DNA from: Burkholderiales bacterium 67-32
GTDB taxonomy: Bacteria > Pseudomonadota > Gammaproteobacteria > Burkholderiales > Burkholderiaceae_B
Assembly: GCA_001898625.1 (NCBI GenBank)
Contig: MKUP01000004.1
Span: forward strand, 62,001-126,000
Length of the DNA: 64,000 bases
Direction: 5' to 3'
The notes under the pieces were generated by a model that saw only the letters and a program-made list of their open reading frames with translations, was not told where the DNA came from and ran no database searches. The translations under genes and the position numbers were made by a program. Numbering within the stretch: position 1 is the first letter of the stretch; every line of letters begins with the position of its first letter. This document shows, piece after piece, positions 1 to 55,503 of this stretch.

Positions 1-1
1 G

Positions 2-979
2 CTCGACGCCGCGTTCGCGCCGCTGGGCATCGCCGTGCAGTCGCTCAACGCCTCGCTCGACCGCCAGGTCCGCGAGGCCCATTTCGATCACGGCCAGCCC
101 GGGCTGTTCCGTCAGGGCGGCATGATCCCGCCGATCTGGAGCCGTTCACGCGGCGCCGACACCCTCGTCATCGCCACCGGCTGGATCGATGAATACCAGG
201 CGGTGATCGCCCTGCCCGACAGCGGCATCCGCGACGGCGGCGACCTGCGCGGCAGGCGCCTGGGCGTCCCCTGCCGGCCGGGCGAACAGATCGACTACTG
301 GCGGGCCATGTGCCTGCGCGGCTATCACAGCGCGCTCCAGCTTGCGGGCCTCGCGCCCACCGACGTGGAATTCGTCGCGCTGCCCATCCACGAAGGCCAG
401 ATTCCCACGGGCGGCGCGTCGCAGCGGGGTTCGCTGTGGCACGGCGCGCCCCGGGCCCGGCGGCAGAGCCGCGAAGCGCTGGCCCTGGTCCGCGGCGAAG
501 TCGATGCCATCTACACCGCCAGCCCGGCCGGCGCGCAGCTGACGGCCTTCCTGGGCGCCCGGATCGTGGTCGACATCGGCGCCGCGCCGTCTCCCGCGCT
601 GCGCAGCAACAACCAGGTCCCGGCCATCCTGACGGTGGACGGCAACCTGGCGCGCACCCGGCCCGAGCTGGTCGTACGCTACCTGGCGGCCCTGTTCGAC
701 GCCGCCGACTGGGCCCGCGCCCATCCCCTGGAAGCGGACGCCATCCTGTCCGAAGACGTCGGCACCACGCGCGAATGGCTGGTCGCGGCCCATGGCAGTG
801 ACGTCGCGGCCAGGCTCGCGCCGGTGCTCGACCCCGCCCATGTCCAGGCGGTCGGCGCCCAGAAGGACTTCCTGCTCGGCCTGGGGCTGCTGGAAAAGGA
901 CTTTGACCTGCAGGCGTGGATCGCCCCGGAGTTCATCGAAGCGGCCGCCGCGACGCGAGGCTCCCATGCAACTGCCTGA
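2..979 (+). CDS. DszB-like aromatic sulfinate desulfinase homologue (5' partial)
   Basis: The frame is open from the first base, so the true start lies upstream; 325 codons are visible. The protein belongs to the periplasmic-binding-protein fold family that includes SsuA/NMT1 receptors and DszB, the 2'-hydroxybiphenyl-2-sulfinate desulfinase. The whole visible length resembles DszB: a QPxxxRxGGxIPP segment, LRGRRLGVP, DAIYxxxPxGxQL and a C-terminal WIAPEF. The DszB active-site His60 and Arg70 appear to be kept as His27 and Arg37 of the visible fragment with the same 10-residue spacing. The third catalytic residue (Cys27 in DszB) would lie outside the window, as would any signal peptide. It overlaps the next gene by 14 bases. 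It could instead be a plain ABC receptor; desulfinase function is inference. Confidence 0.75.
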   Translation, partial: LDAAFAPLGIAVQSLNASLDRQVREAHFDHGQPGLFRQGGMIPPIWSRSRGADTLVIATGWIDEYQAVIALPDSGIRDGGDLRGRRLGVPCRPGEQIDYWRAMCLRGYHSALQLAGLAPTDVEFVALPIHEGQIPTGGASQRGSLWHGAPRARRQSREALALVRGEVDAIYTASPAGAQLTAFLGARIVVDIGAAPSPALRSNNQVPAILTVDGNLARTRPELVVRYLAALFDAADWARAHPLEADAILSEDVGTTREWLVAAHGSDVAARLAPVLDPAHVQAVGAQKDFLLGLGLLEKDFDLQAWIAPEFIEAAAATRGSHATA

Positions 980-2597
980 ACCCCTTTCGTCGGTATCGCC
1001 GCCCCGGCCGCTGTCGGCCGCCGGGCGCGGCGTCGTGGCCAGCGCCCATCCGGCGGCCAGCGCGGCCGGCCGGACCATGCTCGAGCGCGGCGGCAACGCC
1101 ATGGATGCCGCCATCGCGATGGCGGCGGCGCTGGGCGTGGCGCAGCCGATGATGAGCGGCCTGGGAGGCGACAGCTTCATCCTCTGGTACGACGCCGCGA
1201 CGGGCCGGATCACGTCCGTCAACGGCTCGGGCCCGGCGCCTGCGGCGGCCGCGGACGACCCGGCGCGCACCCTGCCCATGCGGGGCCTGGGTTCGGCCTC
1301 GGTTCCCGGCGCGGTGGATGCGATGTGCCTGGCCTACGACCATCATGCCAGCGGCCGGCTGTCCTTCGGCGAACTGCTGGCGCCGGCGATCGAACTGGCG
1401 GAACGGGGATGCGAGACACCGCATTTCTGCGCCCGGTTCTTCGCTCTGAACGAAGCGCTCCTGGCGGCCGATCCCGGCGCGCGCCAGGCCTTGTTGATAG
1501 ACGGCCGCGTGCCGCGCGAAGGCGAATTGCTGCGGCAACCCGACCTCGCGCGCACGCTGGAACGCCTGGCGACGCGCGGCCGCGACGATTTCTATGGCGC
1601 GGGCCTGGGCGCCCGCCTGGCCGAACTCAGCCGCCAGACCGGCGGCCCCTTCCGAGAATCGGACTTCGACGGCGTTTTCGCCGAGATCGCGGCCCCCCTC
1701 CAGGTTCCCTACGGCGATGGGTGGGTGGTCAGCAACCCGCCCGTCGCCCAGGGCTTTGTCCTGCTGGAGGCCCTGGGCATCCTGGACCGGCTGGACCTCC
1801 CTGCGGATGACCACGCACTGCGCGCGCATTGCATGATCGAGGCGCTCAAGCACGCCTTCGCCGACCGCAACGATTTCCTGGGAGACCCCCGCTTCACGGC
1901 CAATCCGCTGCCCCAGTTGCTGGCCGCGCCGCGCCTGGACCGGGTCGCCGCCACCATCGACCCGTCGCGGGCCGCCACCGCGCTGCCGCGCGCGCGCTGG
2001 TCGCTCGGCAGCGGCGACACCACCTGCTTCGTGGCGGCCGACGCCCAGGGCAACGTGGCGAGCTACATCACCAGCATCTCGACGCCGTTCGGCGCGGGCG
2101 TGGTCGTACCCGGCACGGGCGTGCTGCTCAACAACCGCGCGGGCCGCGGATTTTCCCCGGACGCCCACTCGCCCAACCATCTCGCTCCCGGCAAGCGCAC
2201 CATGTCCACGCTGCACGTCTACATGGCCCTGGACAGCCAGCGGCGGCTGGTCATGGCGGGGGGCACCGCCGGCGGCGATGGACAGCCGCAGTGGAACCTG
2301 CAGATCCTCGACGCCGTCCTGAACCGCGGTCTGTCGCTGCGGCAGGCGGTGGACCAGCCGCGCTGGGAACTCTTTCCCGGCAGCGACCCCGCCCATCTTG
2401 CCCACCCTTACGAGATCCGCGTCGATCGCCGCCTCGACGCCACGCTGGTCGACCGGCTCCGCGCGCTGGGCCACACGATCAGCGACAAATCGCTGGGCAT
2501 GCTGGGAGCGGCGCAGGTACTGGGGATCGCGCCATCCGGGGGTTTCGTCGCCGCTGCCGATCCCCGGGCAGACGGGGCCGCGTACGCGGTCGGTTGA
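966..2597 (+). CDS. Gamma-glutamyltransferase family protein, cytosolic type
   Basis: 543 aa Ntn hydrolase of the gamma-glutamyltransferase family, which breaks the gamma-glutamyl bond of glutathione and its conjugates after self-cleavage into two subunits. The predicted nucleophile is Thr352 in the GDTTCF motif, followed by the conserved GNVxSY and PGTGVLLNN segments; the His usual two residues after Thr is Cys here. No signal peptide is visible, unlike secreted Ggt, so it resembles the YwrD-type cytoplasmic branch. The ATG start has a GAGG five bases upstream and overlaps the end of the preceding gene. Its position between a desulfinase homologue and a glutathione-dependent isomerase suggests processing of a glutathione or glutamyl adduct (inference). 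Confidence 0.9.
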   Translation: MQLPEPLSSVSPPRPLSAAGRGVVASAHPAASAAGRTMLERGGNAMDAAIAMAAALGVAQPMMSGLGGDSFILWYDAATGRITSVNGSGPAPAAAADDPARTLPMRGLGSASVPGAVDAMCLAYDHHASGRLSFGELLAPAIELAERGCETPHFCARFFALNEALLAADPGARQALLIDGRVPREGELLRQPDLARTLERLATRGRDDFYGAGLGARLAELSRQTGGPFRESDFDGVFAEIAAPLQVPYGDGWVVSNPPVAQGFVLLEALGILDRLDLPADDHALRAHCMIEALKHAFADRNDFLGDPRFTANPLPQLLAAPRLDRVAATIDPSRAATALPRARWSLGSGDTTCFVAADAQGNVASYITSISTPFGAGVVVPGTGVLLNNRAGRGFSPDAHSPNHLAPGKRTMSTLHVYMALDSQRRLVMAGGTAGGDGQPQWNLQILDAVLNRGLSLRQAVDQPRWELFPGSDPAHLAHPYEIRVDRRLDATLVDRLRALGHTISDKSLGMLGAAQVLGIAPSGGFVAAADPRADGAAYAVG

Positions 2598-2621
2598 CCA
2601 TTCGCTCGCTTAGGAGCCGCC

Positions 2622-3716
2622 ATGAATACCAGACGCCGTTCTCCCCCCGCCGTCCCCTCGCCCACCCGGCGCCGGCTGACCGCCCTGTCGTGCCTGGCCT
2701 TGGCCGCGCTGCCGCCGTGGACGCGCGTGCTGGCCGCGCAGCCGGACCAGGCGCTGCGCAAGGTGCGTGTGGGCATGCTCGACAGCCTGTCCGAGGCGCC
2801 CGCGCTGATCGCCTACGAACAGGGCTACTTCAAGGAAGAAGGGCTGGACGTGGAGTTCGTGTCGTTCAGCAACACCGCCGACATGGTGGCCCCCTTGAGC
2901 GCCCGCCAACTCGACGTCGCCTCCGGTGCGCCCACGCTGGCGCTGTTCAACGGCGCCCTGCGAGGCCTGCCGTTCAAGCTGGTCGCCGACAAGGGGCGAA
3001 ACTCTCCGGGCCACGGCTTCAATGCGCTCGTGGTGCGCAAGGATCTGGTCGACTCGGGCCGTGTCAAGAGCATCGCCGATATCAAGGGCATGAAGGTGGC
3101 GACGCCTTCCCGCCATTCCCCGATGGAACTGCAGTTGGACATGGCCCTGCGAACCGCCGGACTGGGCCTGAACGATGTCGGACTCGAGCAGCTCGCGTTT
3201 CCCAGCATGATCGCCGCGCTCACGAACAAGGCGGTGGACGCCGCGCTGATGATCGAACCCCTGGTCACGGTCATCGCCCAACGGCAGATCGGTACGCGTC
3301 TGCTGGGGTTCGACCAGACCTCTCCCGAGTTCCAGATCGCCGGCATCATCTATGGCCCCAGCCTGACCCAGGCCGACTCCGATGTCGGCAGGAAATGGAT
3401 GGTCGCCTACGTGCGCGGCATCCGCGCCTACCTCGATTCACTGGACGGCCGAGGCTCCCGCGACGTGACCGAGCGCGCGCTCAGTCGCCACATCGAAGTC
3501 TTCAAGAACCAGGAGTTGTTGAAGAAACTGGTCTACCCGGGATTCAACCCCGACGGCTACCTCAACCTGCAGACCATCAAGGACAGCATGGCGTGGTACG
3601 CGGGACTGGGGCTGCTCAAGACGCAGCCCCGGCTGACCGATCTGGTCGACTACCGCTACCTGGATTACGCCCTGGATCGCCTGGGCCGCAAGGGCCCCCG
3701 GCAAGGAGTCAATTGA
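2622..3716 (+). CDS. ABC transporter substrate-binding protein, NMT1/SsuA-like
   Basis: 364 aa periplasmic receptor. The N-terminus carries a twin-arginine-like signal (TRRRL at residues 15-19, then a hydrophobic run ending near Ala39). The mature part has the NMT1/SsuA fold signature: VGMLDSLSEAP near the start, EQGYFKEEGLDVEF, and a central SMIAALTNKAVDAALMIEP typical of nitrate/sulfonate/taurine receptors. It probably delivers its ligand to the ATPase and permease encoded two genes downstream. Family members bind sulfonates, thiamine precursors, riboflavin or aromatic acids, so the ligand is not fixed by sequence. GGAG lies upstream of the ATG. The next gene starts after one base. Confidence 0.9.
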   Translation: MNTRRRSPPAVPSPTRRRLTALSCLALAALPPWTRVLAAQPDQALRKVRVGMLDSLSEAPALIAYEQGYFKEEGLDVEFVSFSNTADMVAPLSARQLDVASGAPTLALFNGALRGLPFKLVADKGRNSPGHGFNALVVRKDLVDSGRVKSIADIKGMKVATPSRHSPMELQLDMALRTAGLGLNDVGLEQLAFPSMIAALTNKAVDAALMIEPLVTVIAQRQIGTRLLGFDQTSPEFQIAGIIYGPSLTQADSDVGRKWMVAYVRGIRAYLDSLDGRGSRDVTERALSRHIEVFKNQELLKKLVYPGFNPDGYLNLQTIKDSMAWYAGLGLLKTQPRLTDLVDYRYLDYALDRLGRKGPRQGVN

Positions 3717-3717
3717 C

Positions 3718-4791
3718 ATGACCTCCGACAGCCTCGAACAACTGCATGCCGACATGGAACGGGCGCGCCTGGTGCCCACGTGGAAATACGTCTCGCAGTT
3801 CGTATCCATGCAGCCTGTCGTCAGCTACCGGCCGTTCCTGTGGAAATGGGACCACGTGCTGGCCCATCTGATGCGGGCGGGGGATCTCGTGACCCTGGAG
3901 CGCGGCGCCGAGCGGCGATCGATGGAACATACGAATCCCGACCTGCGGGCCCAATTCTCGACCTCCCATACCCTGGCGACCGCCCTGCAACTGGTGCGCC
4001 CGGGGGAACGCGCGCCCGCCCACCGCCACCAGGCCGGCGCGGTCAGGTTCGCGGCCCGCAGCCACGGCGGCGAGGTATTCACCTGTGTCCAGGGAGAACC
4101 GCTGCGCATGGAGGAGAACGATCTCTTGCTCACGCCCTCGGGCACCTGGCACGGACACAGGAACGATACGGCGCACGACATCGTCTGGCTGGATGCGCTG
4201 GACTATCCGCTGGTCAACCTGCTGCAGGCCAGTTGGTTCGAACCGGGCGACGACGATTCGGCGCCGCCCCGGCCCGAGGGCTACACGACGGCCCGCTACG
4301 GCCATGCCCGGCCGGCCGGCTGGGACGGCGATCCTGCTCCCCAGCCCGTCATGCGCTACCGCTGGCACGACATGCGCGAGTCCATCGAACGCCTGCGCCG
4401 GGAAGACGGCAGCCCCCACGACGGCATCCTGCTGGAGTACGTCAACCCCCGGACCTCCGGCCCCACCCTGCCGACGATGTCCTGCCGCGCCCAACTCCTG
4501 AGACCCGCCGAGCACACCCGGGCGCACCGCGCCACGGCCAGCACCGTCCACTACGTGATCGAGGGCGAAGGCAGCAGCATCGTCGATGGCCAGCGCTTCG
4601 ACTGGGCCCGTGGCGACGTCTTCGTCATTCCGAACTGGGCCTGGCACGAACACCTGAATCCGCACGGCCGCGACGCCATCCTGTTCTGCATCACCGACGA
4701 GCCGGTCATGCGGGCGCTAGGCATGTACCGCGAACAACCCTATCCTGACCACGACGGCCGCCAGACGGTCGGATCCACCTTCACGCCCTAG
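3718..4791 (+). CDS. Bicupin ring-cleavage dioxygenase, gentisate 1,2-dioxygenase-like
   Basis: 357 aa, the usual length of gentisate 1,2-dioxygenase and 1-hydroxy-2-naphthoate dioxygenase. Two cupin domains are visible. The N-terminal one (about residues 90-160) has the HRH pair and the WHGH that supply the Fe(II) ligands, followed by the WLDALDYPLVN strand typical of the family. The C-terminal one (about 260-340) keeps AHRAT, HYVIEGEG and IPNWAWHEH. Such enzymes open an aromatic ring carrying adjacent oxygen functions. The start is one base after the previous stop, with AAGGAG inside that gene. The nearby GST-type isomerase would act on its maleylpyruvate-type product. The ring substrate is unknown. 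Confidence 0.88.
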   Translation: MTSDSLEQLHADMERARLVPTWKYVSQFVSMQPVVSYRPFLWKWDHVLAHLMRAGDLVTLERGAERRSMEHTNPDLRAQFSTSHTLATALQLVRPGERAPAHRHQAGAVRFAARSHGGEVFTCVQGEPLRMEENDLLLTPSGTWHGHRNDTAHDIVWLDALDYPLVNLLQASWFEPGDDDSAPPRPEGYTTARYGHARPAGWDGDPAPQPVMRYRWHDMRESIERLRREDGSPHDGILLEYVNPRTSGPTLPTMSCRAQLLRPAEHTRAHRATASTVHYVIEGEGSSIVDGQRFDWARGDVFVIPNWAWHEHLNPHGRDAILFCITDEPVMRALGMYREQPYPDHDGRQTVGSTFTP

Positions 4792-4800
4792 GAGACGGTG

Positions 4801-5652
4801 ATGAAAGCGATGCCCGAATTCGCGCTTTCCCCCGGCGCGCCGGCGGCCCCCGGACGCCGGCGCGCGATCGTCATGGAAAACCTGGGCAAGCGCTTCCTGG
4901 CCGGCAAGGGCGAATACACGGCCTTGCGCGGCGTCGATCTCGACATCCTGGACGGGGAATTCGTCTGCATCGTCGGGCCCTCCGGCTGCGGCAAGACCAC
5001 GCTGCTGCGCATCCTGGCCGGCCTGGACACGCATACCGACGGCAGGCTGGCCGTACGGCCCGCCGCCGCCGGCAGGCCGCTGACCTCGGTGGTGTTCCAG
5101 GAACACTCCATCTTTCCCTGGCTGAGCGTGTACGACAACGTGGCCTACGGCGTGCGTTCGAGCGGCATGCCCAAGCCGGAAATGAAGCGGCGGGTCGACT
5201 ACTACCTCGACAAGGTGGGCCTGCGGCCCTTCGCCCATGCCTACCCGCACCAACTCTCGGGCGGCATGAAACAGCGCGTCTCCATCGCCCGGGCGTTCGC
5301 CAACGATCCCGAGATCCTGCTGATGGACGAACCGTTCTCCGCGCTGGACGAACAGAACCGCGCGGTCATGCAGGAAGAACTGCTGCGCATCTGGGAGGAA
5401 ACGCGCAAGACGGTCGTCTTCATCACCCATTCCGTCGACGAGGCCGTCCTCCTGGCCGACCGGGTCGTCGTACTGGGCGGCCGCCCGGGCGGCGTGCGCG
5501 CCACGCTGGCCTCGCCCTTCGCCCGCCCGCGGTCCTACGCGGCCCTGCGCGCCGATCGCGCCTATGTCGATCTCGCGTCGCGGGTGGCCGCGCACATCCA
5601 GGAATCCTTCCTGCAAACCCAGTCCGACCAGACAGGAGACGGACATGGCTGA
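4801..5652 (+). CDS. ABC transporter ATP-binding protein, SsuB/TauB-like
   Basis: 283 aa cytoplasmic ATPase of a nitrate/sulfonate/taurine-type importer. Walker A GPSGCGKT (59-66), Q-loop Gln100, signature LSGGMKQ (152-158), Walker B with DEP (176-178) and the switch His210 are intact. I chose the ATG at 4801 because GGAG sits six bases before it; a GTG one codon earlier would be too close. Its last eight bases overlap the permease gene, so the two are translationally coupled. It should energise uptake of the ligand bound by the receptor at 2622. Confidence 0.93.
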   Translation: MKAMPEFALSPGAPAAPGRRRAIVMENLGKRFLAGKGEYTALRGVDLDILDGEFVCIVGPSGCGKTTLLRILAGLDTHTDGRLAVRPAAAGRPLTSVVFQEHSIFPWLSVYDNVAYGVRSSGMPKPEMKRRVDYYLDKVGLRPFAHAYPHQLSGGMKQRVSIARAFANDPEILLMDEPFSALDEQNRAVMQEELLRIWEETRKTVVFITHSVDEAVLLADRVVVLGGRPGGVRATLASPFARPRSYAALRADRAYVDLASRVAAHIQESFLQTQSDQTGDGHG

Positions 5653-6466
5653 GGACCTGATCCCCATCGAGCCCTCGCGCGACATCGGGCACGCGGAACG
5701 CCGCCGCCAGCGCCTGGAACGGCTGCTGTCCGTCGCCACGCCCCTGCTCATCCTGGCCGCCTGGGAAGCCCTGGTCCGCGCGGGGCTGGTCGACGCGCGG
5801 CTGTTCTCGTCGCCCAGCCAGATCGCCGGCACGTTCTGGGCATTGGCGCAGTCGGGCGAACTGGCGCGCCACGTCGGCATCTCGCTGGTGCGCATAGGCA
5901 TAGGCTTCGCGCTGGGCGCCATTCCGGGCGTGCTCACCGGTGTCGCCATCGGGCTCTCGCCGCTGGTCAGGGCGGTGCTGTCGCCCATCATCGCCTCGCT
6001 CTACCCCATTCCCAAGATCGCCATCTTTCCGCTGATCATGGTGATCTTCGGCATAGGCGAAGTCAGCAAGTACGTCCTGGTGGCGATCGCGGTGTTCTTC
6101 TTCATGGCGATCAACTCGGCGGCGGGCGTATTGAATGTCGAGCGCATCTATTGGGATGTCGGCCACAGCTTCCGGGTCGGCCGATTGCGCCGCATCCTGA
6201 CCATCGCCCTTCCCGGCGCGCTGCCCATGATCATCGCCGGCATCCGGCTGAGCCTGGGCGTGTCGCTGCTGGTCCTGGTCAGCGCCGAGTTCGTCGGCTC
6301 GAAAAGCGGCATCGGCTTCCTGGTCTGGGATTCCTGGCAGACCTTCAACATCGAAACGATGTTCGTCGGCATCGTGGTCATCGGCGCGCTGGGCTGGATC
6401 TTCTTCACGGTCGTGGACGAATTCGAACGGCGCTTCCTGCCCTGGGCGCCCGGCAACCGGCGCTGA
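5645..6466 (+). CDS. ABC transporter permease, SsuC/TauC-like
   Basis: 273 aa inner-membrane permease of the BPD_transp_1 family. About six hydrophobic segments are visible, beginning after a charged N-terminus near residue 30. The cytoplasmic coupling loop lies around residues 170-190 (RVGRLRRILTIALPGALP). It overlaps the end of the ATPase gene by eight bases (ATG at 5645 inside the upstream frame). With the ATPase and the receptor at 2622 it makes a complete importer of the sulfonate/nitrate/taurine class. Confidence 0.93.
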   Translation: MAEDLIPIEPSRDIGHAERRRQRLERLLSVATPLLILAAWEALVRAGLVDARLFSSPSQIAGTFWALAQSGELARHVGISLVRIGIGFALGAIPGVLTGVAIGLSPLVRAVLSPIIASLYPIPKIAIFPLIMVIFGIGEVSKYVLVAIAVFFFMAINSAAGVLNVERIYWDVGHSFRVGRLRRILTIALPGALPMIIAGIRLSLGVSLLVLVSAEFVGSKSGIGFLVWDSWQTFNIETMFVGIVVIGALGWIFFTVVDEFERRFLPWAPGNRR

Positions 6467-6477
6467 AGGGACACGCG

Positions 6478-7122
6478 ATGCTCACGCTCTACACCTATTG
6501 GCGCTCATCCACCTCGTACCGGGTGCGCATCATGCTCAACTGGAAGGGCCTGCCCTACCGGCCGGAGTACGTCAGCCTGCCGCGCATGGACCACCGCTCC
6601 GCGCCGTTTCTCGGCACCAATCCGCAGGGCCTGGTCCCCGCTTTGCGGGACGGGGATTTCGAACTGGCGCAGTCGATGGCGATCTTCGAATACCTGGAGG
6701 AACGCCATCCCTCGCCCGCGCTGCTGCCCCCGGACATCCGCCAACGCGCCTACGTGCGCATGCTGGCCAACATCGTCGCGTGCGACATCCATCCCTTGAA
6801 CAACGTCCGGATCCTGCGCCACCTGGAACAGCGCCTCGGCCTGGACGAGGCCGCCCGCAACGGCTGGTACGCCACCTGGATCGCCGCGGGCCTGCAAGCC
6901 TTCGAAGCCTCGCTGGAACACTGGGGCTGGAATGGCGACTACTGCTGCGGCGACGAACCGAGCATCGCCGACGTCTGCCTCGTGCCCCAGCTCTACAACG
7001 CGCGCCGCTTCGGCTGCGACCTGCGCCCCTATCCCCGGCTCGCCGCCATCGCGCAACGCTGCGAATCACTGCCGCCATTCGCCGCGGCGCATCCTTCCAC
7101 CCAGGCCGACGCGGTGGCCTGA
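6478..7122 (+). CDS. Maleylacetoacetate/maleylpyruvate isomerase (zeta-class GST)
   Basis: 214 aa glutathione S-transferase of the zeta class. The N-terminal thioredoxin-like domain has the diagnostic SSTSYRVRI motif (residues 10-18) whose Ser activates glutathione, then NPQGLVPAL and QSMAIFEYLEE for glutathione binding; the all-helical domain follows, with DIHPLNNVRIL and DEPSIADVCLVPQ. Family members perform glutathione-dependent cis-trans isomerisation of maleylacetoacetate or maleylpyruvate, the step after homogentisate or gentisate ring opening. That fits the bicupin dioxygenase three genes upstream. The hydrolase that would complete a gentisate route is not in this operon. Confidence 0.9.
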   Translation: MLTLYTYWRSSTSYRVRIMLNWKGLPYRPEYVSLPRMDHRSAPFLGTNPQGLVPALRDGDFELAQSMAIFEYLEERHPSPALLPPDIRQRAYVRMLANIVACDIHPLNNVRILRHLEQRLGLDEAARNGWYATWIAAGLQAFEASLEHWGWNGDYCCGDEPSIADVCLVPQLYNARRFGCDLRPYPRLAAIAQRCESLPPFAAAHPSTQADAVA

Positions 7123-7155
7123 AACCTCGTGTCCATCCAAGGAGACTTACCGACC

Positions 7156-7548
7156 ATGAAAAGCATCCACGCGCCCGAAATCAAACCCGCGCCGCCCCAG
7201 ACCTGGACCAATTGCAAGGTCCACAACGGCCAGTTCTTCATCTCGGGCATGACCGCCCACGACCTGTCCGGCGGCGTGGAAGGCGACGGCAGCATGTACG
7301 ACCAATCGCGGCGGACCTTCCAGAAGATCCGGCATCTGGTCGAGGCCTGCGGCGCCGTCATGGACGACATCATCCAGCTCAACGTGTTCGTGACCCGCAT
7401 CGAGGAAAGACAGGAGGTCTGGCGGGCGCGCAAGGAATTCTTCACCGGCGATTTCCCCTGCTGCACCCTGGTCGAGGTGACCGGACTCGCCACCCCCGCC
7501 CTGAAGGTCGAGATCAACGCCACCGGCTTCATCGGCGGTCGCGCCTGA
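7156..7548 (+). CDS. RidA/YjgF-family protein lacking the catalytic Arg
   Basis: 130 aa, the standard RidA length. RidA enzymes hydrolyse reactive enamine/imine intermediates and need an Arg (Arg105 in E. coli) in a P-x-R-S-x-VEV context. Here the aligned segment reads PCCTLVEV, placing Cys103 where the Arg should be, so imine deaminase activity is doubtful; Rid subgroups without the Arg are known but poorly characterised. AGGAGA lies ten bases before the ATG at 7156. It ends the operon; the next gene is convergent 18 bases on. It may bind or convert a ring-cleavage intermediate (inference). Confidence 0.88.
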   Translation: MKSIHAPEIKPAPPQTWTNCKVHNGQFFISGMTAHDLSGGVEGDGSMYDQSRRTFQKIRHLVEACGAVMDDIIQLNVFVTRIEERQEVWRARKEFFTGDFPCCTLVEVTGLATPALKVEINATGFIGGRA

Positions 7549-7566: not shown

Positions 7567-8925
7567 CTACATGTCGCGGCCCAGGTAGGCCCCGTCCCGC
7601 TCCAGGACCTGCTGCAGGGCGGCCACGTCCAGCCGGCGCGGCGCCACGCCGGCCCGCAGCGACAGGGCCGCCGCCGTGCCGGCAGCCTGGCCCATGGCGA
7701 AGCACGGGCCGGTCACGCGCGCGGCTGACTGGCCCATGTGGGTCATCGAGGCGCAGCGCCCCGCCACCAGCAGGTTGTCCACGCCCAGCGGCAGCAGCAT
7801 GCGGTACGGCAGGTGGTTGAAACCCCGCACATTGGGCACGTCGACGAACTTGAACACGATGTCGCCGGCGACGTGGGCCTCGACCGGCCAGCCGTTCACG
7901 CCTATGGTGTCCTCGAAGCTCGCGCAGCCCAGCACGTCGTCCTCGGTCAACAGGTATTCGCCGACGATGCGGCGCGTCTCGCGTATGCCGACCTGCGGCG
8001 CGATCTCCAGGATGTACGAGGCGTCGAAGCCCGGCGCGTACTCGCGCAGGAACTCGAAGAAGTCGCGGGCCTGGCGCCGGCCCTGCAGCTCGCCCTCGCT
8101 CAACTGCCAGGCATCGGTGCCGTCGATCGCGGTCCCATCGGGGTTGCTGAGCTGGGTCACGTTGGCGCGCCATTCGACCGGATTCTTTTGCGGCCGCACG
8201 ATGGGCGTCTTGCGCGCGAAGCGGCGGCCATCGCGGGTGGCCTCTTCCATCAGGCGGCCGAAATGTTCCCAGGCCCTGCCGGCGCGGGCCGGATCGACGT
8301 TGTTGACGCGGAACATGGTCGACGGATACAGCATGCCGCCGTGGCCGTCACCCTTTTCATAAGGCACGCCCGCCGCGGCCGCCATGTCGCCGTCGCCCGA
8401 GCAGTCGATATAGATCCTGCCGACCACGGCGGCGCGGCCGGATTTGGTCTCGACCAGCAGCGCGGCGATCTCGCCCGGCGAACGCATCAGCACGCCGGCC
8501 GCCTGCGCATGGAACAGCAACTGGCTGCCGCTGGAGACGACCAGGTCGTCGGCCGCCAGCTTGTAGGCCGCGTTGTCGTAGGCCTGCGCCATGATCCTGT
8601 CCTGGAACATGCGGTGCGGTTCGCACAGGCCGCCCAGTCCTTCCAGCGTGGCCAGCAGTTCGTCCGCCAGGCCGTGCACCACGCGCCGGTTGTCGCCGAA
8701 GACGTTGGCATGCAGGCCGCAGAAGTTGGTCACGCCCGCGGCCGTGCCCATGCCCCCCAGGAACCCGTAGCGTTCGATCAGCAGGGTGCGGCAGCCGTGG
8801 CGCGCCGCGGCCGCCGCCGCCGTCATGCCGGCGGGCCCGCCGCCCAGCACCACCACGTCGAATTCGCCCAGTACCGGCGTCTGCCGCGCGGGTTCGGTCA
8901 CGCTGGCCGGATGTACCGATGTCAT
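7567..8925 (-). CDS. FAD-dependent oxidoreductase (FAD_oxidored family)
   Basis: 452 aa flavoprotein. A dinucleotide-binding motif VVLGGGPAGMTAA lies at about residues 25-37, followed by LIERYGFLGGMGT. This N-terminal GG-x-GT pattern is typical of the FAD_oxidored group (PF12831). The C-terminal FAD segment LLVAGRCASMTHMGQSAARVTGPC is also characteristic. No signal peptide or membrane segment is evident, so it is probably cytosolic. The substrate cannot be read from sequence. It is divergent from the LysR gene at 9027 across a strong inverted repeat and is convergent with the 1-7548 operon, so it probably serves the same or a related catabolic route. Confidence 0.88.
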   Translation of the reverse strand: MTSVHPASVTEPARQTPVLGEFDVVVLGGGPAGMTAAAAAARHGCRTLLIERYGFLGGMGTAAGVTNFCGLHANVFGDNRRVVHGLADELLATLEGLGGLCEPHRMFQDRIMAQAYDNAAYKLAADDLVVSSGSQLLFHAQAAGVLMRSPGEIAALLVETKSGRAAVVGRIYIDCSGDGDMAAAAGVPYEKGDGHGGMLYPSTMFRVNNVDPARAGRAWEHFGRLMEEATRDGRRFARKTPIVRPQKNPVEWRANVTQLSNPDGTAIDGTDAWQLSEGELQGRRQARDFFEFLREYAPGFDASYILEIAPQVGIRETRRIVGEYLLTEDDVLGCASFEDTIGVNGWPVEAHVAGDIVFKFVDVPNVRGFNHLPYRMLLPLGVDNLLVAGRCASMTHMGQSAARVTGPCFAMGQAAGTAAALSLRAGVAPRRLDVAALQQVLERDGAYLGRDM

Positions 8926-9026: not shown

Positions 9027-9938
9027 ATGGATACCCTGGCCAACCTGCGCGCCTTCCTCGCCACGGTACGCGGCGGCAATTTCTCGGAAGCCGCGCGCCA
9101 GCTCGACACGGTACCCTCGGTCGTCGCCAAGCGCATCGGCCATCTCGAATGGACCCTGGGCACGCGCCTGTTCGAACGCTCCAGCCGCCGGGTAACGCTG
9201 ACCGAGGCCGGCCACAAGTTCCACGTCCGGGCCCGCGCGCTGGTCAGCGACTTCGACGACATCGCCTCGGAACTCAAGCGCGACCAGGACGCGCTGGACG
9301 GCCACATCCGGCTGCGGGCCCCGACCTCGCTCACGGTGCTGTACCTGGCCGACATCCTCGCGGCCTTCCAGCGGCGCCATGAACGGCTGACCCTGGAGAT
9401 CGCGCTGCTGGACCGGTCGGCCAATCCCGCCGAGGAAGGCTTCGACATCGCGGTCAGCGGCCGCGCCGACAGCTACGAGGGCGTGGTGGACGAACCGCTG
9501 TGCCCGCTGCGCCAGGTCGTCTGCGCCACGCCCGGCTACCTGGCGCGCCGGCCCGCCCCGCGCCATCCGCGCGACCTGGCCGACCACGACTGCCTGGTGT
9601 TCAATCCCACCGGCCACAGTTGGCACTTCAACAGCGCGAGCGGCCCCATCAGCATCGACGTACCCGCGCGCCTGGGCGCCAACGACAACTATGTGCTGTA
9701 TGCCTCCGCCCGCGCCGGCAACGGCATCGCCGTGCTGCCCACCTACGTCGCGCGGAACGCGCTGGCGGACGGCAGCCTGGTGGCGCTGTTGGAGGATCAT
9801 CCCTTGCAGGACGTGTGGCTCAAGGCCCTGATTCCGGTCCGCAAGCGCGCCTTGCCGCGCATGGAACTGCTGCTGGCCTGGCTGCGCGAACACCTGGGCG
9901 GCACGCCGCCCTGGGAAAGGCCCGGCCGCGGCGCATGA
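9027..9938 (+). CDS. LysR-family transcriptional regulator
   Basis: 303 aa. The N-terminal winged HTH (about residues 1-60) contains NLRAFLATVRGGNFSEAA and LFERSSRRVTLTEAG. The C-terminal half is the effector-binding periplasmic-like domain (about 90-295), where HIRLRAPTSL marks its first strand. It is of the CrgA/DsdC-like subgroup that has a short C-terminal tail. It probably regulates the divergent FAD oxidoreductase through the inverted repeat that abuts its own start codon. Upstream of the ATG only a weak GGAAT is seen, so translation may be low. Confidence 0.92.
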   Translation: MDTLANLRAFLATVRGGNFSEAARQLDTVPSVVAKRIGHLEWTLGTRLFERSSRRVTLTEAGHKFHVRARALVSDFDDIASELKRDQDALDGHIRLRAPTSLTVLYLADILAAFQRRHERLTLEIALLDRSANPAEEGFDIAVSGRADSYEGVVDEPLCPLRQVVCATPGYLARRPAPRHPRDLADHDCLVFNPTGHSWHFNSASGPISIDVPARLGANDNYVLYASARAGNGIAVLPTYVARNALADGSLVALLEDHPLQDVWLKALIPVRKRALPRMELLLAWLREHLGGTPPWERPGRGA

Positions 9939-54419: not shown

Positions 54420-54528
54420 AGAAGCGGCGGCACGGTACCGGGCCGCCGCCGCGCGGACTTAAGCTGTCGTGCCGCGAGGCGGCCCGTGCGCCGCCCCGCT
54501 CCCACTCTCGTCAGGACTGGAGCCTCGC

Positions 54529-55503
54529 TTGAAACTCGCCAGCTACGCCACCTTCGACCGGCCCGACACCGCGCGCGTCGGATTCGTGATCTCCGACTCC
54601 GAACTGGTCGATGCCGAAACCGCATGCCGCCAATTCGCCCCCGACTTCCAGGGCCCCCTGGACATGCACCGGCTGATCGAAGCCGGCCCCGATTTCTGGG
54701 AACAGCTGCGGCAGGTGCATGCCGCGCTGGGCCAGGCCGGGCTGCCGCGCCTGCCCATGGACACGGTCCGCTTCCTTCCCGCCGTGCCGCGTCCCTCGAA
54801 GCTGTGCTGCCTGGCCCTGAACAACAGCGCCAACACCGACCGCATCGTCAAGGGCCCCAAGCACCCGGCGGTCTTCACCAAACCCTGGTCGGCGCTGGTC
54901 GGCCACGGCGAACCGATACGCCTGAAGCCCCACTACGGCCGCGTGCACCCGGAGCCCGAACTGGCGATCGTGATCGGCAAGCTGGCGCGCGACATCGACG
55001 CGGCCGACGCCTATGACCATGTGTTCGGCTACACCATCCACAACGACCTGACCTCGCCCACCATGCGCGACGAAGACAGCTTCCACTACCGCGCCATCCA
55101 CCCGGCGCTGGAAGGCGAAGGCATCCGCTACGTCGAAAGCCATGTCTCGTACAGCGGCCGCTACAAGGGTTCGGACACGTTCTCCCCGCTGGGCCCGTGG
55201 ATCGTCACCCGCGACGAGATCCCCAACCCGCACGCGCTGGACATCTCGTGCCACGTCCGCGAAGAACAGTACGCCAGCGACAACACGGCGAACCTCTTCC
55301 ACAAGCTGCCCGAGGTCCTGGCCTTCGTCTCCAGCTACATGACGCTGGTGCCGGGCGACGTGGTGTCGATGGGCACGGCGCTGGCCTCGGGCGGCAAACC
55401 CGGCCGGGCGGTCCAGAACGCCGACCTGAACAAGATCGGCGGCCCCGTCAGCGTCACCGTGGCGGGGATAGGCAAGCTCAGCAACCCTGTGCAGGCGGGC
55501 TGA
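54529..55503 (+). CDS. Fumarylacetoacetate hydrolase family protein
   Basis: 324 aa. FAH-fold enzyme; metal ligands Glu/Glu in HPEPELAIVIG and Asp in IHNDLTS, and VPGDVVSMGTA at the end. Members hydrolyse fumarylpyruvate, acylpyruvates or 2-oxo-hepta-dioates of aromatic catabolism. The TTG start is placed by GGAG seven bases before it and the natural N-terminus KLASYATF. It follows the IclR gene and carries its own operator copy. It could finish a gentisate-type route whose other enzymes are at 3718 and 6478, but that is inference. Confidence 0.9.
   Translation: MKLASYATFDRPDTARVGFVISDSELVDAETACRQFAPDFQGPLDMHRLIEAGPDFWEQLRQVHAALGQAGLPRLPMDTVRFLPAVPRPSKLCCLALNNSANTDRIVKGPKHPAVFTKPWSALVGHGEPIRLKPHYGRVHPEPELAIVIGKLARDIDAADAYDHVFGYTIHNDLTSPTMRDEDSFHYRAIHPALEGEGIRYVESHVSYSGRYKGSDTFSPLGPWIVTRDEIPNPHALDISCHVREEQYASDNTANLFHKLPEVLAFVSSYMTLVPGDVVSMGTALASGGKPGRAVQNADLNKIGGPVSVTVAGIGKLSNPVQAG

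Follow-up and report, generated by a model that had tools for sequence, protein, structure and literature searches.

The operon and its conservation

The window analyzed here is a stretch of 64,000 nucleotides from Burkholderiales bacterium 67-32 (G000:C4:62001-126000 of the 6.66-Mb genome). L009 coordinates cover the same locus, including DNA upstream of the window. Eight open reading frames (ORFs) on the + strand lie at positions 2-7548, with neighbors overlapping or at most 33 bp apart as read from the ORFs of the window, and together they look like a single operon. The first encodes a DszB-like protein, a candidate aromatic sulfinate desulfinase (1..979 in the window, ORF 2-979 with the 5′ end cut; whole gene L009:11924-12979). 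It is followed by genes for an apparently cytosolic N-terminal nucleophile (Ntn) hydrolase of the γ-glutamyltransferase (GGT) family, a candidate amidase/acylase (966..2597; Pfam, 405.6 bits); a periplasmic NMT1-type solute-binding protein of an importer (2622..3716; Pfam NMT1, 64.2 bits); a bicupin ring-cleaving dioxygenase assigned to the 5-aminosalicylate 1,2-dioxygenase (MabB) family (3718..4791); an ABC transporter ATPase of the Ssu/Tau/Nrt type (4798..5652; Pfam ABC_tran) and a permease of the SsuC/TauC type (5642..6466; Pfam BPD_transp_1); a zeta-class glutathione S-transferase (GST), assigned as a maleylpyruvate/maleylacetoacetate isomerase (6478..7122); and a Rid-family protein, which may act on the ring-cleavage product as a deaminase or tautomerase (7156..7548; Pfam Ribonuc_L-PSP). 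The near-gapless run of eight genes of these families had been described by a sequence-only reading of the window, and it is borne out by the ORFs and by the same gene order elsewhere (see below).

The upstream DNA contains a further gene on the + strand, encoding a PF04909 amidohydrolase (L009:10807-11922, outside the window). Since the start of the DszB-like gene lies 77 bases upstream of the window and the end of the amidohydrolase gene 1 bp ahead of that start, the apparent operon has nine genes, the amidohydrolase gene being the first. Also outside the window are a divergent gene on the - strand for a protein with citrate-synthase and helix-turn-helix (HTH) domains (L009:9341-10612) and, between it and the operon, an intergenic candidate operator (L009:10613-10806).

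Relatives of the bicupin were collected in a scan with one genome per species, and 80 of the 104 confirmed loci were kept and searched with 18 proteins of the locus itself (tblastn, E ≤ 1e-10). The bicupin identity is 68-97% in seven of these loci and 34-45% in the other 73, which are mostly from Bacillota. For this block, Alcaligenaceae bacterium SAGV5 and Pigmentiphaga kullae K24 are the nearest named relatives. All nine operon genes are found in order, together with the divergent citrate-synthase/HTH gene, in L011 and L012 (Pigmentiphaga-type), and the alphaproteobacterial loci L014 and L017 (Reyranella) and L013 (a metagenome-assembled genome (MAG) of Rhodospirillales). The proteins share 56-75% identity (44-45% for the Rid protein) with those of L013, L014, and L017, and the recurrence of the same order at 56-75% identity argues that the nine-gene grouping is not due to chance. 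Two Burkholderiales MAGs, L015 and L016, carry a rearranged version of the block. In L015, seven of the nine genes are in order, the divergent gene is present, and a Rid-family gene (35% identity) is relocated beside the bicupin gene. The 5.4-kb contig L016 runs from inside the DszB-like gene to inside the ATPase gene, and the part that it covers agrees with L015. The proteins are 87-98% alike among L013, L014, and L017 and 94-98% alike between L015 and L016, and the block is therefore counted as three lineages rather than seven independent cases.

None of the 73 lower-identity loci gives a match to the DszB-like, GGT-like, binding, isomerase, or Rid proteins at this E-value; as several of their contigs are short, the lack of matches is incomplete evidence for these loci. 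There is one weak amidohydrolase match (L039, 25%) and one permease match (L070) among them. The sequence-only reading had proposed a search for conserved co-occurrence as a check on its claim, which separate conservation of the DszB-like and dioxygenase genes would have refuted; in the seven loci with the block, the two genes are indeed conserved together.

The nine-gene block is rare. The cut-off of the MabB family model (see below) is passed in one of 399 genomes drawn from the window's order, that of the window itself, and in four of the 11 genomes of the genus, this one included. The runner-up protein in the order-wide search scores 278 bits, and a runner-up this low indicates that MabB-type bicupins form a well-separated subfamily. 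Among 398 genomes drawn from the phylum, the genome of the window is the sole match to the amidohydrolase profile (E ≤ 1e-40), and seven genomes match the DszB-like profile (E ≤ 1e-60). A second copy of the block was not found on plasmids with amidohydrolase, GGT-like, or MabB queries. The amidohydrolase matches one plasmid record (25% identity, E ≤ 1e-15), the GGT-like protein two (approximately 37% identity, E ≤ 1e-60), and MabB 92, none of them at 60% identity or above (E ≤ 1e-50).

Families and active-site residues of the encoded proteins

Against NF049978, the curated model of 5-aminosalicylate 1,2-dioxygenase, the bicupin reaches 677.5 bits (cut-off 650); the reference enzyme of this model is MabB of Comamonas sp. 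QT12. In comparison, the score of the bicupin against the gentisate model TIGR02272 is 267.5 bits (cut-off 442.1). By its sequence, the bicupin fits the MabB family and not gentisate dioxygenase, an identity rejected on these curated scores. Five of the seven bicupin copies pass the MabB cut-off, the four others with 676.6, 674.1, 674.3, and 665.0 bits. The closest solved relative is 3bu7, in the gentisate dioxygenase superfamily. Residues H102, H104, and H145, which we take to be the ligands of the cupin metal site, do not vary in an alignment of eight bicupins that includes two distant ones. The ring-opening dioxygenase of the sequence-only reading thus stands as to the bicupin family; the 5-aminosalicylate family had been missed. 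With the bicupin in this family, nitrogen becomes as central to the operon as sulfur.

The mab route of Comamonas sp. QT12 leads from 3-aminobenzoate to 5-aminosalicylate and on to cis-ACOHDA, beyond which a deaminase and a hydrolase have been proposed to complete the route to fumarate and pyruvate; knockouts of the deaminase and the hydrolase still degraded the substrate (PMC9584955). The mab cluster is therefore similar to the block in having a ring-cleaving dioxygenase of the same curated family, with deamination and hydrolysis proposed downstream. On the other hand, the mab gene mabA, for 3-aminobenzoate 6-monooxygenase, has no counterpart in the conserved block, and the partial description of the mab cluster names no DszB, GGT, amidohydrolase, or importer. 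Gentisate operons (gentisate dioxygenase, isomerase, and fumarylacetoacetate hydrolase (FAH)) have the bicupin fold and the maleylpyruvate isomerase in common with the block. In comparison, the block has another dioxygenase subfamily, no FAH, and three extra upstream enzymes.

The GST-like protein scores 262.7 bits against TIGR01262 (cut-off 171.05), and its best matches in the Protein Data Bank (PDB), 2v6k and 2jl4, are maleylpyruvate isomerase. The glutathione-dependent isomerase proposed earlier is confirmed at this level, with maleylpyruvate isomerase as its nearest solved relative. The best PDB match of the Rid protein is PA3499. AmnE, a member of the Rid family with Arg117 in its clefts, deaminates 2-aminomuconate in the breakdown of 2-aminophenol (PMC6742747), and a deaminase role is considered for the Rid protein because of this precedent.

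Matches of the DszB-like protein in the PDB (phmmer, E ≤ 0.1) are limited to two DszB sequences, with E-values of 9e-26 and 2e-24. As a control, the neighboring binding protein matches 13 PDB sequences, which include THI5, nitrate-transport, and sulfonate-binding proteins but not DszB. Residues C12, H53, R63, G65, and G66 are invariant in 10 aligned DszB-like sequences and correspond to C27, H60, and R70-x-G-G73 of DszB. In that enzyme, C27, H60, R70, and G73 have catalytic roles, and the cysteine gives a proton to the ring carbon (PMC6100217). The protein has no signal peptide by eye. Judged by these residues and matches, the first gene in the window is a genuine DszB homolog with its catalytic residues kept, as the sequence-only reading had proposed. 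The DszABC system for dibenzothiophene desulfurization (DszB, PDB 2de2/2de3) shares with the operon this family and the conserved C27, H60, and R70-x-G-G; it differs in that the operon has no DszA or DszC and the block continues to ring cleavage. The Dsz pathway leaves the carbon skeleton intact.

DszB-like relatives were found by tblastn in 87 plasmid records. The neighborhoods of five were fetched, and three of them (Variovorax, Allorhizobium, and Sinorhizobium meliloti) were annotated. Within approximately 7 kb, the Variovorax and Allorhizobium relatives each have an SfnB/DszC-like gene, with a score of 296 bits in both cases (SfnB model, cut-off 430.9). Genes for a cysteine dioxygenase and a cystathionine lyase are located further along in Variovorax. 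In S. meliloti, the adjacent protein with the acyl-CoA-dehydrogenase fold scores similarly against several models and weakly against SfnB. For three more relatives, the scored neighbors are an SsuD-like protein (L141; 298.7 bits, cut-off 518.2), an aldo/keto reductase (L140), and a protein with no match (L149). The neighborhoods of some DszB relatives, as annotated from sequence, thus favor organosulfur chemistry for the family.

Two DszB-like genes flank the acyl-CoA-dehydrogenase-fold gene on the S. meliloti plasmid (L123:8989-12319), and tandem DszB-like pairs are also present in G465, G469, G550, and G764. The L149 relative is a second DszB-like gene in the genome of the window (G000:C12:306647-307675), and the neighbor without an NCBIfam match is a 181-aa protein.

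The top four PDB sequence matches of the amidohydrolase are 8sm7, 8sm8, 8sm9, and PtmU3 (6omp), followed by AibH2 (6m1w chain B) and γ-resorcylate decarboxylase, with modest E-values of 9e-9 to 6e-7. The first three are dinuclear-metal proteins, and SfbO is an O2-dependent Mn/Fe or Fe/Fe monooxygenase (PMC10811679). The metal ligands of AibH2 are D25, H27, H211, E265, D337, and H340 (PMC7782822). All of them are present in the amidohydrolase, as D6, H8, H199, E263, D321, and H324, together with D326 at the D342/E313 position, and these residues are invariant in six copies. As all these positions but the D342 equivalent are also kept in AibH1, a mononuclear zinc subunit, the ligand set is indicative rather than conclusive. 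The amidohydrolase-fold protein may be an O2-using dinuclear-metal oxygenase, otherwise a hydrolase. Its similarity to AibH2, SfbO, and PtmU3 consists of the six ligands, the D342 equivalent, and the best PDB sequence matches. On the other hand, its identity to AibH1H2 and SfbO-type chains is 18-21% in structure-based alignments, and the operon has no Rieske ferredoxin or reductase.

A comparison with 30 of the 48 PF04909 matches in the same genome, those that came with loci, provides a soft control: most rows have gaps or misalignment in the N-terminal columns, and several rows are unusable as a whole (for example, L158, L161, L164-L166, L170, and L179). His occupies the E263 position in 21 of the 30 rows and Glu in one (L179, which is visibly in the wrong frame). 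No usable row among these 30 other proteins has the full oxygenase-type ligand set. A decarboxylase identity is disfavored by the DxH and EGGG motifs of the amidohydrolase, in contrast to HxH and HGGG in three paralogs (L171, L172, and L174). A second amidohydrolase in the genome, L136 (G000:C13:205405-206535), has the same oxygenase-type ligands, with Glu in place of D326. A literature search on DitZ, another fold match of the amidohydrolase, found nothing.

The GGT-like protein scores 297.7 bits against the NCBIfam GGT equivalog (cut-off 357.85), and its best PDB match is 2nlz, annotated as a cephalosporin acylase. The Ntn nucleophile T352 and the oxyanion glycines G436 and G437 are retained. 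The positions equivalent to R114, N411, Q430, and D433 of the E. coli enzyme (numbering counted from T391) are S/A, S, R, and R in five copies, the D433 match being an ungapped reading where HMMER puts a gap. Some GGTs tolerate a serine in place of R114, and the R109S mutant of the B. licheniformis enzyme keeps 85% of the activity (PMC8062742). By eye, the N terminus has no signal peptide. Among GGT-like proteins, BhGGT/cephalosporin acylase (2nlz) and Thermoplasma 2i3o are similar in their Ntn-hydrolase family and in NGSG replacing the R114 region; the difference is that the gene here sits in an aromatic operon. Of the GGT-type enzyme claimed earlier, the family therefore holds, while the γ-glutamyl-binding residues are absent and the equivalog cut-off is not reached.

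For the importer, the binding protein scores 87.9 bits against SsuA_fam (cut-off 163.5), the permease 131.7 bits against SsuC (cut-off 347), and the ATPase is below the cut-offs of all the NCBIfam models listed. The N terminus of the binding protein is signal-peptide-like by eye. The earlier description of a sulfonate-type importer is retained for the Ssu/Tau/Nrt-type superfamily, but the SsuA_fam and SsuC cut-offs are not reached.

Proposed pathway and its alternatives

Gene content, spacing, conservation, family assignments, and active-site residues are read directly from the DNA. From these we infer a substrate, an order of steps, the activity of each enzyme (desulfination, oxygenation, and deamination among them), and a mode of regulation. 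In our judgment there is about an even chance that the genes form an operon dedicated to the catabolism of an imported aromatic of the aminosalicylate type, one that bears an amide and perhaps a sulfur substituent.

In the proposed pathway, the periplasmic binding protein and the ABC importer would take up the aromatic compound. Its side groups would be stripped by three apparently cytosolic enzymes. The amidohydrolase-fold protein would act as an O2-using dinuclear-metal oxygenase, or otherwise as a hydrolase; the DszB-like protein would protonate the ring carbon and so remove a sulfinate; and cleavage of the amide would fall to the GGT-like Ntn hydrolase. Desulfination is proposed here for the DszB-like protein, as opposed to another ipso-protonation. 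The MabB-type bicupin would then open the resulting 5-aminosalicylate-like ring, and the amino-dienoate product would be deaminated, possibly with the help of the Rid protein. The glutathione-dependent maleylpyruvate isomerase would produce fumarylpyruvate, and a hydrolase whose gene lies elsewhere would cleave this to pyruvate and fumarate. A more specific version is that the amidohydrolase-fold oxygenase replaces DszC/DszA and frees a sulfinate from a natural N-acylated, sulfur-linked aminosalicylate, with DszB-type removal of SO2, an Ntn amidase, and MabB-type cleavage following, under the control of a citrate-synthase-fold/DNA-binding sensor. This version is speculative, and we consider it, taken as a whole, rather unlikely.

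Several observations weigh against the proposed pathway. The MabB assignment comes from the family model NF049978 and not from a comparison with the Comamonas MabB sequence, and the dioxygenases of L015 and L016, with 618.6 and 617.7 bits, are below its cut-off. L015 gives no isomerase match nearby (tblastn, E ≤ 1e-10). The importer proteins are below the sulfonate cut-offs, which places the sulfonate/taurine-type assignment at the superfamily level. No DszA or DszC homolog is present among the operon genes, and sulfur is perhaps involved, as suggested by the DszB homology and the surroundings of some relatives. Few of those surroundings were looked at, not all of them have sulfur genes, and every flavin-enzyme score near the DszB relatives is under its curated cut-off. 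The conserved block contains no ferredoxin or reductase for an oxygenase, and the AlphaFold model predicted for the amidohydrolase is of low quality (pLDDT 59), with oxygenases and decarboxylases alike among its fold matches. The conserved block also has no fumarylpyruvate or other final hydrolase. The position of Arg105 in the Rid protein is Cys, Cys, or Ser across the three lineages. An Arg105-type residue is tied to imine hydrolysis, and Rid subfamilies without it have unknown function (PMC4433059). Its loss in all three lineages seriously weakens the case for the deamination step.

The strongest competitor, which we hold to be possible but distinctly doubtful, is a plain nitrogen-aromatic pathway for an N-acylated aminosalicylate, with the DszB-like protein as an ipso-protonating decarboxylase, the amidohydrolase as a hydrolase, and no sulfur. 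The 5-aminosalicylate family of the bicupin, the absence of a DszA/DszC partner from the operon, and the distant likeness of the importer to sulfonate importers would all suit it, and ring protonation by the DszB cysteine (PMC6100217) would in principle suit decarboxylation. However, DszB is the sole PDB match of the DszB-like protein at E ≤ 0.1, some of its relatives at 38-43% identity are located in organosulfur neighborhoods, and the DxH/EGGG motifs of the amidohydrolase differ from HxH/HGGG in the decarboxylase-type paralogs. An ordinary gentisate operon with passenger genes would explain the maleylpyruvate isomerase and the membership of the bicupin in the gentisate dioxygenase superfamily, with 3bu7 as its closest solved relative. 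This is improbable given the score of 267.5 bits against the gentisate cut-off of 442.1; moreover, the accompanying genes recur in three lineages, and yet none of the 73 lower-identity loci carries homologs of the DszB-like, GGT-like, binding, isomerase, or Rid proteins at E ≤ 1e-10.

The sequence-only reading had also suggested a glutathione adduct as the substrate, in which case GGT would take γ-glutamate off an aromatic glutathione conjugate before the C-S bond is cut. The presence of GGT-family, GST-family, and DszB-like proteins in one operon would by itself agree with this, but the contacts to the γ-glutamyl group are lost (S/A, S, R, and R in place of R114, N411, Q430, and D433), although, given the tolerance of R109S (PMC8062742), the protein may still hydrolyze γ-glutamyl bonds. 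The GGT-like protein is also below the equivalog cut-off and, by eye, lacks a signal peptide, the best match of the GST-like protein is maleylpyruvate isomerase, and neither a dipeptidase nor a β-lyase/C-S lyase is found among the operon genes. The idea is dropped here, being in our view very improbable.

Literature searches on the gene combination found no description of it in titles and the starts of abstracts of mostly open papers, which is not proof of absence. The operon for an aminosalicylate-type aromatic would point to an uncharacterized conserved pathway in which 5-aminosalicylate-type ring cleavage is combined with desulfinase-type chemistry. Should the amidohydrolase prove to be an oxygenase, a catabolic role on aromatics would be added to a small enzyme class with few members described (PMC10811679). 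As the compound 5-aminosalicylate is the drug mesalamine and is also formed from azo dyes and aminobenzoates, these genes may be of use as environmental markers.

The divergent gene, the intergenic region, and the flanking genes

In all five copies scanned, the protein encoded by the divergent gene combines HTH_17 at its N terminus with a citrate-synthase-like domain, the HTH_17 domain of the L015 copy being just under the Pfam cut-off (25 bits, cut-off 27). The gene is also divergent from the operon in L011-L015 and L017, and this conservation suggests an unusual type of sensor. H250 and H324, which we take to be active-site-like, are invariant in four aligned copies of the citrate-synthase-like domain. 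At the third catalytic position, where citrate synthase usually has Asp, there appears to be an invariant Glu.

The 194-bp intergenic region (L009:10613-10806) contains six TTGAT/ATCAA half-sites; within the 64-kb window, stretches of 194 bp hold three at most. In L011, L012, L013, L014, L015, and L017, the respective numbers are 6, 6, 2, 2, 4, and 3. Stretches of the same length in the same locus reach the respective count in 0.2-0.3% of cases for the locus itself, L011, L012, and L015, in 1.3% for L017, and in approximately 3% for L013 and L014, with AT-richness uncontrolled. A TTGAT..AATCAAT.TTGAT module aligns across the three lineages. The citrate-synthase/HTH protein would be the natural candidate for binding these sites.

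Downstream, the unit is closed by a convergent gene for an FAD oxidoreductase (7567-8925), with a LysR gene at 9027 beyond it. Both genes are near the block in L011 and L012 alone among the seven block loci. The FAH-type hydrolase near 54529, which had been suggested to finish the pathway, does exist (ORF 54469-55503), but it is 47 kb away and outside the conserved block, so its linkage to the operon does not hold; a neighbor of this ORF looks IclR-like by eye. Approximately 3 kb upstream of the operon, genes for an FAH-family hydrolase, a Rieske-domain protein, and a TctC receptor lie in a row on the - strand (L009:4598-7675). The FAH-family gene (L009:6797-7675) is beside the block solely in L011 and L012 among the seven loci, and the same is true of the Rieske gene (L009:5628-6815; 395 aa, on the strand opposite to the operon). 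The genome as a whole is rich in several of the families discussed here, with 29 NMT1-type, 48 PF04909, and six MabB/gentisate-dioxygenase-type matches.

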